From Siphonodentalium dalli (Eukaryota > Mollusca > Scaphopoda > Gadilida > Siphonodentaliidae): DNA of 64,000 bases. Numbering within the stretch: the stretch's first letter is position 1; each line of letters begins with the position of its first letter. The notes under the pieces were generated by a model, which was not told where the DNA came from, ran no database searches, and was given only the letters and a program-made list of their open reading frames with translations. Position numbers and translations under genes: made by a program. Location of the stretch: positions 226,438,578 through 226,502,577 of the forward strand of contig CP136062.1 of NCBI GenBank assembly GCA_032622095.1, written 5' to 3'. Positions 5,304 through 49,437 of this stretch are shown piece by piece.

Positions 5304-5516
5304 CAGTAATGCTCAAAGTAATCGACTTCTTAACCACAGCAGAATTATGGGTAACTTTTCAGGATTTAGTCGGAAATATGGCTTGTTGCCATTCATCGGA
5401 AAGCTCTCCCCAAGAGCTTTCCAATGAATGGCAACAAGGCATATTTCCGACTAAATCCTGAAAAGTTACCCATAATTCTGCTGTGGTTAAGAAGTCGATT
5501 ACTTAGAGCAATACTG
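5304..5516. mobile_element. Family A palindromic MITE, full length 213 bp
   Basis: TA-CAGTAATGC ... GCAATACTG-TA. The two arms of about 105 bp are nearly perfect complements around CCCAAGAGC. Confidence 0.92.
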
Positions 5517-11114: not shown

Positions 11115-11271
11115 TTAACCCTTCCATTTTGAGAAAACCCTGTGCCAGTGCATTCTCTTATATATATGCAAGTTTCCCATAGGGAACCTCGAATTTATAA
11201 CAGAATACATTGGCCTAACAATATTTATCTTGATCTCGTATTCCAGTGCATTCTCTCATATATTCAAGGGA
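11115..11271 (-). mobile_element. TTAA MITE, gamma type, truncated
   Basis: Begins TTAACCCTTCCATTTTGAG. It carries one complete hairpin whose inner stem is TTCCC-ATA-GGGAA and the start of the second, then stops without a right end. Confidence 0.75.
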
Positions 11272-11430: not shown

Positions 11431-11894
11431 CAAGCCAACAAATACTGTGTCTGTCATTTTCAGAAAGAGCTCCTCCCAGAATGAGGTCCCCAGAAGGTGA
11501 ATTTAGTGATGCTATACCACACAGTGGGCTAGCATCACCAAATTCACCTTCTGGGGACCTCATTCTGCTTTGGCCTCATCTTCTGGGAAGTATCAAATTA
11601 ACATTGTTTTAGTTACTTAATTTTTACCATCTGTTCAGTTTCTACATCCACTAATTTGCAGAAGAAAAATGCATAATCGAGGTAACTATTAAATGGGTGA
11701 TTATCAGCAATGTCAACTGGGGAACTTAAATCTGATCGAAGGTCTCTCATAGCAGTTAATTGGGGCCTCGGAAGAATGAGGCCCCCAGAGGGTGAACTTG
11801 GTGACGCTATCCCACTGTGCGGGATAGCATCACTAAATTTATCCTCTGGGAACCTCATTCTGTAAAAATGTCAGACTCACTATTTTAAGGCTTG
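11431..11894. mobile_element. Family B element, complete
   Basis: CAAGCCAACAAATACTG ... TATTTTAAGGCTTG with two hairpins (11480-11568, 11774-11862). It is inserted after GATGTTACG of a tandem segment copy. The sequence right after it does not restart GTTACG, so no simple duplication is seen. Confidence 0.87.
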
Positions 11895-12022: not shown

Positions 12023-12422
12023 TTAACCCTTTACCCAACAAACCGGCCAAAACCGGCCAAATAAAGCTTCAACATCCTAAAATATCTTCGGTCTGTCTCA
12101 ATAGAACCATACAAATATGGATATCATTGGAACCGGCTCCTTGACCACATTGTGATAGTTACAGTTATGCCCTGTGCCAATGCATTCTCTTATATATGCG
12201 AGTCGACCATAGGTCGCCTCGCATATATAAGAGAATGCATTGGCCTAAAAAAAATCTTTTTTTAACACTTTTTACCATTTTTTCTTACATTCTTTAACAA
12301 TTTTATAATTTTTAATGTGTTAAGCCAATGCATTCTCTTATATATGCGAGGCGACCTATGGTCGACTCGCATATATAAGAGAATGCATTGGCACAGGGCA
12401 ATTCTGTTGGGTAAAGGGTTAA
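12023..12422 (+). mobile_element. TTAA MITE, alpha type, complete 400 bp
   Basis: TTAA-CCCTTTACCCAACA ... TGTTGGGTAAAGGG-TTAA. A GC-rich direct repeat CCGGCCAAAACCGGCC lies near the left end. Two hairpins (12172-12245 and 12325-12397) are reverse complements of each other. It sits inside a segment whose other copies (13629-13632, 14909-14912) show the empty TTAA. Confidence 0.95.
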
Positions 12423-13259: not shown

Positions 13260-13523
13260 TTAACCCTTTCATGACGAGAGCTGCGCAGGTGCTGCATTAA
13301 ATATCCTGTGCCATGCAATTCATTCTCTTATATATGTGAGTCTCCCATAGGGAGGCTCGCATATATAAGAGAATGTACTGGCTTACAAGGTCAGGCAAAA
13401 TATTGTTAGGCCAACGTATTCTCTTAAATATATGTGGGGCTCCATATGGAAGACTCGCATGTATAAGAAAATTGGCACAGGGTTTTCGCAAATTTCAGGA
13501 AGCTCCCATCATGAAAGGGTTAA
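13260..13523 (+). mobile_element. TTAA MITE, gamma type, complete 264 bp
   Basis: TTAACCCTTTCATGACGAG at left, CATCATGAAAGGGTTAA at right. The two hairpins have inner stems CTCCC/GGGAG and CTCCATATGGAAG. It occupies the same site in the tandem segment as the copies at 14556 and about 15229, so it predates the duplication. Confidence 0.92.
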
Positions 13524-14555: not shown

Positions 14556-14803
14556 TTAACCCTTTCATGATAAGAGCTGCGTGGGTGCAGCGTTAAAGAT
14601 CCTGTGCCAATGCATTCTCTTATATATGCCAGTCTCCCATAGGGAGGCTTGCATATATAAGAGAATGTACAAGGTCAGGCAAAATATTGTTAGGCCAATG
14701 TATTCTCTTATATATGTGGGGCTCCATTTGGAAGACTCGCATATATAAGAAAAAAACAGGGTTTTCGCAAAATTTCAGGAAGCTCCCATCATGAAAGGGT
14801 TAC
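14556..14803 (+). mobile_element. TTAA MITE, gamma type
   Basis: TTAACCCTTTCATGATAAG ... CATGAAAGGGTTAC; the right duplication is mutated by one base. The hairpin arms have lost sequence relative to the copy at 13260. Positional equivalent of that copy in the second tandem segment. Confidence 0.9.
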
Positions 14804-25515: not shown

Positions 25516-25529
25516 AGATCCTGTGCCAG

Positions 25530-25915
25530 TGCATTCTCTTATATATGCAAGTCTCTAATAGGGAGCCTCGCATATATAAGAGAATGCTCTGGCTTACAAA
25601 GTAAATATTGTTAGGCCAATGTATTCTCTTATATATGCGAGTCTCTAATAGGGAGCCTCGCCTCGCATATATAAGAGAATGCTCAGGCTTACAAAGTAAA
25701 TATTGTTAGGCCAATGTATTCTCTTATATATGCGAGTCTCTAATAGGGAGCCTCGCATATATAAGAGAATGCTCAGGCTTACAAAGTAAATATTGTTAGG
25801 CCAATGTATTCTCTTATATATGCGAGTCTTTAATAGGGAGCCTCGCATATATAAGAGAATGCTCTGGCTTACAAAGTAAATATTGTTAGGCCATTGTATT
25901 CTCTTATATATGTCA
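25530..25915 (+). repeat. Tandem hairpin array, four units of about 90 bp
   Basis: Each unit holds one whole MITE hairpin (GTATTCTCTTATATATGCGAG ends with CTCGCATATATAAGAGAATG-type arms) and the linker AAAGTAAATATTGTTAGGCC. One unit has an extra CCTCG. Confidence 0.9.
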
Positions 25916-28363: not shown

Positions 28364-28804
28364 CTATGCGATATCAGTGATTGTACATAATACTTAAAAA
28401 CAGGAGGATTTATCAACTAAAACTAATCAAAAGAAAAACGAACTATAGTTCAATAATTCCAGTAACTCTTAATTTTGAAAAATAACAAGAATTTCAGTTT
28501 CCATGGAGATATTATTAAAACGTTCGTGGTGAACTGTCGACAAATTAAACAGACACTGCCAGCAAAAGACACTTCTAATTCAATTCTAATCAAATTGGAT
28601 TACAGTACATCCTTAGAAGGAATATTATCACAATTTCACGGAACTTTTAAAGATGGAATTATATTTTCAAGATTTGTTTCTATAGAAACAATCGACGGAA
28701 CTCGCAGAGTGATAGGAATGATTAGAAAATTGTTCTAAATAACTACAGAAGGATTCAAACATAAGATATTAAATTCTTAGAAGTAAGTACATAGAATACT
28801 CAAA

Positions 28805-29917
28805 ATGTTCAACTGTACGAACATTAACATGACTCTAGAGAGTAATAACACGGAGATAGTGGATCTACTTAAAGGATATCTCTATGGAATACTTATTCCT
28901 ATAGTATGCGTGTTCGGTTTCGTTGGAAATATACTAAACGTTATCATTTTCTGTAAAAAGACGAACACGCGCGTTCTCGACGACATGGAGAAGTGCACGA
29001 CCGTCTGCCTCGTCGCTTTGGCACTGTCCGATCTTATGTTTTGCATCTGTACATTTCCGAATGGTTTTATTCCGGACAGAAAACTGTTTAATAAAAACGA
29101 GTTTATGTTGTATTACAAATCGTTCAGCACGGCGGTGATCAGTATTTTTATTCTTAACAGTACGCTGTTGACTGTACTTGCAGCTATAATGCGATACATT
29201 GCTATCTGCCACCCGTTCTATTCTCGACAATTCATATCGATGAAAACAACACTGATTTCAATAGGGGTCGTCATGCTTATTTCTATCGGACTCAACATCC
29301 CTCAATTCTGGAGGTTAAAGTTCATGTACTGCTCAGATTTAATGGATTTTATCTTCGTTCAAAAAGGCGACTTATTTAAAAATACGCAATTCGTATACGC
29401 TCATAAGCTTCTGTGGGCGATTATCGGCAATTTCATTCCACTCGCCTTACTTCTACATTGTAACATTTGTCTGATAAAGGCGTTGCACCAGAGCAAGCAA
29501 CTACGATTGCTTCACAGCCGTGACAACACAAGCTGTATCTCAGCACATCGAAGAATCAACATTACGCTCGTCGCGATTATTATATTATTCTTCATTCTCG
29601 TTGCTCCATCAGAAATGACTAAATTTGTATTCTACGTCACAAAAGACAATAATACGAAGAAAGAAACGCACCAGATCGTGAATATGGTGACGAACTTACT
29701 ACAATGTATTAATTTTTCTGTTAACTTTATTCTTTACTACACGATTATCGCTCCATTCCGAAAGACACTCAATAGCCTCGTCTGCCACTACAGCTTCAAG
29801 TTCAGGTTCCGTAAAAAGAGGAGACAGGAATCAAGTTCTTCAGAAAGTAAAACGGACAGCGCCCGGCAGCAGCAAACGCTGCTCTTGTTGTCGATGAAAC
29901 AGAAGCAGTTTGCATGA
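28805..29917 (+). CDS. Class A (rhodopsin-like) G-protein coupled receptor, orphan, probably peptide-type
   Basis: A single 370-residue open frame starts at an ATG in an A-rich context (CAAAATG) and ends in TGA. It shows the 7TM layout. The N-terminus carries three N-glycosylation sequons (N3, N8, N14). Approximate segments are TM1 26-50 (GN at 41-42), TM2 64-86 (LALSD, D76 = 2.50), TM3 103-135 (R130-Y131 then IAICHPF), TM4 147-168, TM5 201-226 (P212), TM6 249-277 (P268) and TM7 289-314 (N307..Y311). An amphipathic APFRKTL stretch and a basic, Ser-rich tail (KKRRQESSSS) follow. Several class A landmarks are altered: M129 replaces D/E in DRY, K105 sits where the TM3 disulphide Cys belongs although C176 is present in loop 2, the TM4 Trp is absent, V266 replaces the TM6 Trp, and F308 replaces Pro in NPxxY. 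The overall pattern resembles invertebrate FMRFamide/TRH-receptor-like peptide receptors. The ligand cannot be named. The coding region is intronless and less A+T-rich than its surroundings, and no disabling change is seen. Confidence 0.93.
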   Translation: MFNCTNINMTLESNNTEIVDLLKGYLYGILIPIVCVFGFVGNILNVIIFCKKTNTRVLDDMEKCTTVCLVALALSDLMFCICTFPNGFIPDRKLFNKNEFMLYYKSFSTAVISIFILNSTLLTVLAAIMRYIAICHPFYSRQFISMKTTLISIGVVMLISIGLNIPQFWRLKFMYCSDLMDFIFVQKGDLFKNTQFVYAHKLLWAIIGNFIPLALLLHCNICLIKALHQSKQLRLLHSRDNTSCISAHRRINITLVAIIILFFILVAPSEMTKFVFYVTKDNNTKKETHQIVNMVTNLLQCINFSVNFILYYTIIAPFRKTLNSLVCHYSFKFRFRKKRRQESSSSESKTDSARQQQTLLLLSMKQKQFA

Positions 29918-33531: not shown

Positions 33532-33744
33532 CAGTAATGCCCTAAATAATCGACTCCTTAACCACACAAGAATAATGGGTAATTTTTCCGGATTTAGTCG
33601 GAAATATGGCTTGTTGCCATTCATCGGAAAGGTCTCACTGAAAGCTTTACAATGAATGGCAACAAGCCATATCTCCGACTAAATCCTGAAAAATTGCCCA
33701 TAATTCTGTTGTGGTTAAGGAGTCAATTACTTAGGGCATTACTG
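33532..33744. mobile_element. Family A MITE, full length 213 bp
   Basis: TA-CAGTAATGCCC ... GGGCATTACTG-TA. It interrupts family F copy 1 just after GATAGAGCTA. Confidence 0.92.
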
Positions 33745-34520: not shown

Positions 34521-34916
34521 CAAGCCTTCAAGTAGTGCCTGTCATTTGCAGAATGAGGTCCCCAGAGGGTGAATTTAGTGATGCTATCCCACACAGTGGG
34601 CTAGCATCACCAAATTCACCCTCTGGGGACCACATTCTGCTTAAGTCTCATTTTCTGGGATGTATCTATAGTCTCAAAATAACATTGCTTTTTGTTACTT
34701 TTTTCCCTTTTGGGAAGTTTTTATATCCCGTAATTTGCAGAAGATAAAATGTATAATTGAGGTGACTATAATGGGACTGAACATCACCAACTTCAACTGG
34801 GGAACTTAATCTGATCCTAGATCCTTGATCCCATAGCAGATGAGGCCTGAGCAGAATGAGTTTCCCAGAGGGTGAATTTGGTGACGTGCAGGATAGCGTC
34901 CATAAATTCACCCTCA
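34521..34916. mobile_element. Family B element, right end lost
   Basis: CAAGCCTTCAAGTAGTG, hairpin at 34549-34640, first-subtype middle, and a shortened second hairpin ending at CACCCTCATT. Confidence 0.82.
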
Positions 34917-36185: not shown

Positions 36186-36325
36186 CAAGCCTGAGTTTAG
36201 AATGCCTGTCATTTGCAGAATGAGGTCCCCAGAGAGTGAATTTAGTGGCGCTATCCCACATAGTGGGCTAGCATCACTAAATTCACCCTCTGGGGACCTC
36301 ATTCTGCAAATGACAGGCACATGTA
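36186..36325. mobile_element. Family B derivative with a single hairpin
   Basis: CAAGCCTGAGTTTAGAATGC, one near-perfect hairpin and GCAAATGACAGGCACATG. Both ends are present but the middle and one hairpin are missing. Confidence 0.82.
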
Positions 36326-37527: not shown

Positions 37528-37729
37528 CAGTAATGCTCTAATTAATCGACTTCTTAACCACAGCATAATTAGGGGTACCTTTTCAGGATTTAGTCTGATA
37601 TATGACTTGTTGCCATTCATCGCCGAGAGTTTTCCGATGAATGGCAACAAGCCATATTTCCGACTAAATCCTGAAAAGTTACCCATAATTCTGCTGTGGT
37701 TAAGAAGTCGATTAATTAGAGCATTACTG
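37528..37729. mobile_element. Family A MITE, 202 bp
   Basis: TA-CAGTAATGCTC ... GAGCATTACTG-TA, with a shortened centre (CATCGCCGAGAG). Confidence 0.92.
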
Positions 37730-49314: not shown

Positions 49315-49437
49315 CAAGCCTTGAAATAGTGTGTCTGTCATTTGCAGAATGAGGTCCCCAGAGGGTGAATTTAGTGATGCTACCCCGCATAGTGGGCTAG
49401 CATCACCAAATTCACCCTCTGGGGACCTCATTCTGCT
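49315..49437. mobile_element. Family B single-hairpin copy
   Basis: CAAGCCTTGAAATAGTG and one nearly perfect hairpin ending CTCATTCTGC. Confidence 0.8.

Follow-up and report, generated by a model that had tools for sequence, protein, structure and literature searches.

Matched arm changes in the hairpins of an abundant piggyBac-type MITE of Siphonodentalium dalli probably reflect a few founder copies

Introduction

The closest described systems are two kinds of miniature element and one mutational process. CMITEs are coral MITEs of the piggyBac/TTAA superfamily (Wang et al. 2010, PMC2872659). REPINs are bacterial REP doublets linked to RAYT transposases, and the source that presents them describes compensatory changes in miniature mobile hairpins as common (PMC3116915). 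The process is template switching at quasi-palindromes, which, as set out in PMC3820800, perfects imperfect inverted repeats. Here we analyse hairpin-bearing elements in a 64-kb stretch of DNA (the window) from the scaphopod Siphonodentalium dalli and in the rest of its genome; searches of the open-access literature gave, among the papers listed, none on the present element.

Several features link these elements to the CMITEs as portrayed in PMC2872659: TTAA target sites, CC[C/T]T ends of which several start CCCTTT, an internal region that is better conserved across families than the terminal inverted repeats (TIRs), and a genome that holds both tandem arrays and piggyBac transposases. However, the CMITEs in that account are about 100 bp long with one 75-bp internal region, and their copy numbers were estimated at 18 to 737 per family in A. 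millepora, against about 141,000 hairpins here; the word ‘hairpin’ is absent from the main text of that paper, whereas the present elements carry one or two inverted 69-nt hairpins each. The cores are unrelated, in that the 60-bp CMITE internal consensus matches the hairpin over 5-6 bases only; among the 20 matches listed between a CMITE consensus and the window, none is longer than 12 bases. REPINs, as characterized in PMC3116915, are likewise miniature non-autonomous DNA with two inverted palindromic units, but they are bacterial and depend on another transposase class, and no homology is claimed. In contrast to the events described in PMC3820800, the expected product of quasi-palindrome switching amounts here to at most about 0.6-0.7% of one-sided transitions.

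Results

Hairpin elements in the window

The alpha element at 12023-12422 is 400 nt long with both TTAA copies included, and its inverted ends read TTAACCCTTTACCCAACA (Table 1). Each of its two 69-nt hairpins has an outer stem of 27 bp, a T.C mismatch, an inner stem of 5 bp and a loop that reads ATA. This mismatch, at the foot of the inner stem, makes the palindrome imperfect and gives it an orientation. An earlier note on this DNA had reported hairpins with the tips CGACC-ATA-GGTCG, CTCCC-ATA-GGGAG and TTCCC-ATA-GGGAA in TTAA elements, and all three can be read in the window; the positions it attached to the second and third forms (13260, 14556 and 11115) lead to elements that contain them, but are element starts and not inner stems.

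The alpha hairpin is far from anything that chance would produce. Its structure is the minimum-energy DNA fold predicted for 12176-12244, and none of 200 shuffles was equally good; folded as RNA, the 400-nt element gave z = -22.3, with 0 of 100 shuffles equally good. For the TTCCC/GGGAA hairpin, 2 of 200 shuffles did as well. Hairpin and linker also form tandem arrays, one in the window and others, with a period of 90-97 bp, at L021 (1291-3500) and L067 (146-600); the hairpins of these last two arrays are hybrids in which the left and right flanks come from different hairpin types, leaving an outer pair mismatched. At 28787-29917 the window holds a long open frame of the rhodopsin family of GPCRs (PF00001, E 1.6e-16).

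Table 1. Positions of the hairpin elements, other palindromes and transposase-associated ends (window coordinates unless a locus is named)
Feature	Position	Strand	Details
TTAA-flanked miniature element, alpha family (TTAACCCTTTACCCAACA ... TGTTGGGTAAAGGGTTAA)	12023..12422	.	read directly; termini by scan; TTAA at 12023-12026 and 12419-12422
Hairpin 1, 69 nt	12176..12244	+	sequence; DNA fold -35.4 kcal/mol, z -15.6
Hairpin 2, hairpin 1 inverted	12324..12392	-	sequence
Inner stem and loop CGACC-ATA-GGTCG (founder alpha/beta)	12204..12216	+	CGACC 12204-12208, ATA 12209-12211, GGTCG 12212-12216; flanked by T 12203 and C 12217, facing each other
Gamma element (TTAACCCTTTCATGACG...)	13260..13523	.	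hairpin A 13314-13382, CTCCC 13342-13346, GGGAG 13350-13354; decayed hairpin B about 13410-13474
Gamma element	14556..14803	.	hairpin A 14606-14674, CTCCC 14634-14638, GGGAG 14642-14646; decayed hairpin B about 14694-14753
Decayed hairpin TTCCC/GGGAA (element start 11115)	11144..11214	+	TTCCC 11174-11178, GGGAA 11182-11186; weak fold, z -2.2
Hairpin and linker tandem array	25525..25912	+	90-bp period, 4.3 copies
Second palindrome family (GCAGAATGAGGTCCCC...)	11477-11567, 34548-34640, 36203-36319, 49344-49436, others		
Third palindrome family (CACAGCAGAATTATGGG...)	2814-2963, 5335-5485, 33569-33707, 37554-37703; L117 643-793		
piggyBac-like transposase loci	L045, L046, L049, L050		one end TTAACCCTTTATCTGCTA
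piggyBac-like transposase locus	L059		one end TTAACCCTTTCGACGGCG
piggyBac-like transposase locus	L053 690-3226		perfect TIR pair TTAACACGTTGACTGCCG
piggyBac-like transposase loci	L037, L044		end TTAACACGTTGAGTGCCGG, resembling the beta MITE end

Element ends, copy number and transposases

TTAA flanks both ends of the alpha element and likewise those of the elements at L022, L034 and L035, and the terminal inverted repeats begin with CC[C/T]T (CCCTTTACCCAACA, CCCTTTGAGTGCCAGG, CCCTTTCATGA...). On the strength of the TTAA flanks and CCCTTT ends, the elements fit piggyBac-type MITEs. Elements with both ends located measure 243-484 nt. The elements are short, non-coding and present in high copy number; we take the stop-to-stop frames that cross the copies as incidental. 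One and the same hairpin is found within different element ends, which continue after CCCTTT as ACCCAACA in alpha, as GAGTGCCAGG or CAGTGCCAGG in beta and as CATGA... in gamma. Among elements with both ends located in the window and 96 further loci, all 19 alpha elements contain two hairpins, as do 18 of 19 gamma elements (the remaining one has three), and all nine beta elements contain a single one; the paired hairpins of alpha and gamma elements sit in inverted orientation.

A genome similarity search with a 226-base region as query, in which very common words were skipped, gave no matches, and patterns were counted instead. The hairpin core ATATATGCGAG-N15-CTCGCATAT is matched exactly at 140,858 sites on the forward strand and 140,900 on the reverse strand of the 2.23-Gb genome (9 contigs), the reversed control pattern at none. 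Since the core is near-palindromic and each hairpin is matched on both strands, this corresponds to about 141,000 intact-core hairpins genome-wide. A looser core pattern gave 188,144 matches per strand, against 2,008 for its control. The window is hairpin-rich, with 38 hairpins in its 64 kb against four in five arbitrary 10-kb stretches. On contig C1, hairpin pairs recur every ~11.2 kb between about 826 and 926 kb, a spacing that points to tandem repetition of some long segment.

The piggyBac transposase domain PF13843 has 128 matches in the genome, many of them in open frames. A search for an autonomous partner covered 26 transposase loci (8 and then 18 more); the sequence up to about 1.3-1.5 kb from the transposase contained the TIR pair of the MITEs at none of them. 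An end beginning TTAACCCTTT lies beside the transposase at five of the 26, on one side only and with other bases behind it.

Founder hairpins differ by matched changes

From the window and the 96 loci (143,306 bases; loci mostly drawn from pattern lists and most of them on contig 1) we obtained 260 non-overlapping matches, of which 23 were partial and were set aside. The remaining 237 hairpins were aligned and sorted into four subfamilies: gamma A (71), gamma B1 (61), gamma B2 (25) and the alpha/beta type (80). The inner stems of the founders read CTCCC in gamma A and B1, CGCCC in gamma B2 and CGACC in alpha and beta; the outer stem is nearly identical between them. Relative to the alpha/beta consensus, gamma A differs on both sides at 10/70, 35/45 and 36/44, gamma B1 on both sides at 35/45 and 36/44 and on one side at 13/67, and gamma B2 on both sides at 36/44. 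Thus three of the four pair changes between founder consensuses (10/70, 35/45 and 36/44) are two-sided and 13/67 alone is one-sided. The chance that three left-arm changes would all be matched among four right-arm changes is about 3e-5. The earlier note's observation that the arms change together with pairing kept holds between founder consensuses. On average, copies of gamma A and B1 lie about 8% from their consensus, those of gamma B2 3.6% and those of alpha/beta 1.5%; the last two values are biased low because exact cores were used to draw the loci.

Inserted copies decay mainly on one side

Collapsing identical rows reduced the 237 hairpins to 199 distinct ones, in which 675 one-sided changes were counted. 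Within subfamilies, complementary doubles number 22 against 21.9 expected, a test in which the inner-stem pairs and pair 10/70 are less independent since the classes were assigned by those columns. By subfamily the observed and expected numbers are 12 and 11.0, 6 and 8.3, 3 and 1.6, and 1 and 1.0, so that none of the four shows covariation above chance among the 199 distinct hairpins. When the count was limited to pairs that played no part in class assignment (6-28 other than 10 and 13), it gave 5 complementary doubles against 5.1 expected, pairs 22-28 being held fixed by the search core in whichever hairpin had recruited its locus. Nor is there a simple preference for wobble pairing, with 191 transitions preserving and 181 breaking it. 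Inserted copies decay mainly by one-sided substitutions, and covariation is at the chance level in this all-pairs sample.

If one arm had served as template for the other across the T.C mismatch at 33/47, or if an extruded hairpin had undergone mismatch repair, this mismatch should have been lost, yet it is retained in all four subfamily consensuses and in 182 of the 199 rows. Four rows have a gap; in the 13 rows with a substitution, a standard pair results in only three, and correction is therefore not preferential.

Two other palindrome families occur here. The second (GCAGAATGAGG..., 91-93 nt) has unrelated arms and 27 matches in the window. Its tip follows the same plan as that of the MITE hairpin (a T opposite a C, five pairs and an ATA loop), and its complementary doubles number 9 against 9.1 expected in 33 near-full copies out of 35 matches. 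Members often lie as inverted pairs about 270-310 bp apart. The third family consists of near-perfect palindromes of ~150 nt with inverted-repeat flanks.

Genome-wide counts at two inner pairs

The earlier note had proposed comparing one-sided with two-sided changes across all copies. We did this genome-wide for pairs 36/44 and 35/45 with an oriented 35-mer pattern that counts every hairpin once. The founder CGACC/GGTCG 35-mer has 113,486 exact copies, and on this main founder background the two pairs together are changed on one side in 3,913 copies and on both sides in 175, a result that goes against the idea of repeated regeneration.

At 36/44 (A.T), the left side alone is changed in 385 copies, the right side alone in 305 and both in 140, where independence predicts 1.0; read naively, this is strong covariation. 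However, the identity of the doubles points elsewhere. The commonest singles are A>G on the left (81 of 100 among the matches listed) and T>C on the right (60 of 100 among the matches listed), so that repair of, or selection on, such mutations should yield mostly G.C. Among the best 100 of the 140 doubles there are instead 82 C.G, 9 T.G, 6 C.A and one each of T.A, G.A and C.C; no G.C occurs in the 100 listed, which bounds G.C at 3 copies of the 140, or about 0.6% of one-sided transitions. The unpaired intermediates of a C.G pair are estimated from the listed shares at about 27 C.T and 37 A.G, against 113,486 founder copies. Twenty doubles were retrieved for inspection (14 C.G, 3 T.G and 3 C.A). 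A gamma-type end accompanies 13 of the 14 C.G copies and a gamma A partner hairpin 12, and all 14 have at least one of the two features; we conclude that C.G is an older founder, gamma B2. The T.G and C.A doubles are most simply one-sided decay products of that founder. The mirrored singles at this pair are unequal (81 against 60 of 100 listed), and 20 loci inspected for this strand asymmetry offered no explanation.

At 35/45 (G.C, with a CpG in both arms), the left side alone is changed in 1,491 copies, the right side alone in 1,732 and both in 35. The doubles comprise 29 A.T, 1 T.A, 3 A.A, 1 A.G and 1 C.T, against an expectation of 22.8 doubles that includes 12.9 A.T. The excess of A.T (P about 8e-5) runs counter to our reading of founders followed by one-sided decay. 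A rare flank is present in four of 20 copies retrieved, and in five of 15 exact-arm A.T hairpins against two of 64 unchanged hairpins; these figures rest on a strict flank match, a looser one (Fisher P 0.08) not being relied on. Because of this enrichment, a small founder accounts for part of the excess, leaving about 19 to 23 A.T doubles (P about 0.07 to 0.007). The remainder could be due to CpG decay common to both arms or to infrequent correction of one arm from the other, and the latter, if real, touches at most about 0.7% of one-sided transitions.

Discussion

The matched arm changes are real, but they are probably differences among a few founder copies of an amplified MITE. The variants trace in essence to two or three founder sequences with no further covariation, the small A.T excess at 35/45 excepted, and after insertion the hairpins escape repair and show no visible protection. 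In the mechanism that we propose, the hairpins would be an internal module of high-copy, TTAA-flanked piggyBac-type MITEs with short inverted ends starting CCCTTT, mobilised in trans by one of the many piggyBac transposases that the genome encodes, and pairing would be retained only in those lineages that continued to amplify. That three of four founder changes are two-sided, at a chance of about 3e-5, argues, on the basis of three events only, that the lineages which amplified kept their pairing; pairing may thus have been preserved in amplifying master copies. The earlier note had reasoned that the hairpin is either needed as a structure or repeatedly regenerated; for inserted copies neither version is supported by the counts, and what may survive is a preservation of pairing in copies that were amplifying.

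Why the founders stayed paired can be read in several ways. It is quite conceivable, and we put this forward tentatively, that an intact hairpin aided the mobilisation or copying of the element and that founder pairing was retained for this reason. That chance plus descent produced the founder pairing seems rather unlikely to us. Less likely again is an origin of the matched changes as single events, in which rare arm copying in a master copy made a new perfect inner stem that was then amplified. The scarcity of unpaired intermediates is what such one-step events predict, but selection against these intermediates explains it equally, and the T.C mismatch kept between inner and outer stem in all four consensuses would require very short copying tracts. 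Finally, the T.C left in place, the three paired founder changes and the same tip in the second palindrome family form the basis for supposing that the tip is a functional structure used only while the element amplifies, a suggestion that we consider doubtful.

We judge it very unlikely that arm-to-arm copying, by template switching or by mismatch repair of the hairpin, is a regular process that turns one-sided into two-sided changes in inserted copies. Quasi-palindrome events are known in yeast, according to PMC3820800, and the A.T doubles at 35/45 (29 against 12.9) are of the kind expected; however, the corresponding G.C product at 36/44 is missing from the 100 doubles listed and is limited to 3 copies, the T.C mismatch persists in 182 of 199 rows without preferential correction, and complementary doubles are at the chance level in two palindrome families. 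The supposition that inserted hairpins are under continuing structural selection (as regulatory RNA, small-RNA precursor or cruciform with a host role) is hardly credible, since for all their very stable predicted folds and the near-identical outer stem of the founders, covariation is absent in all four subfamilies and the old copies of gamma A and B1, about 8% from consensus, are mostly damaged on one side.

These results have implications beyond this element. Covariation among repeat copies may stem from a few founders and disappear within subfamilies, which makes it a trap when structure is inferred from transposon alignments. They also bound arm-to-arm correction of hairpins, at the two pairs tested, to at most about 0.6-0.7% of one-sided transitions. 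Should the tip prove to be a functional structure, a transposase or host factor would recognise it, and the integrity of the hairpin, not the TIR, would determine high copy number. More generally, the pairing kept at the level of the founders leads to a testable claim, that hairpin integrity matters to the mobilisation of these elements.
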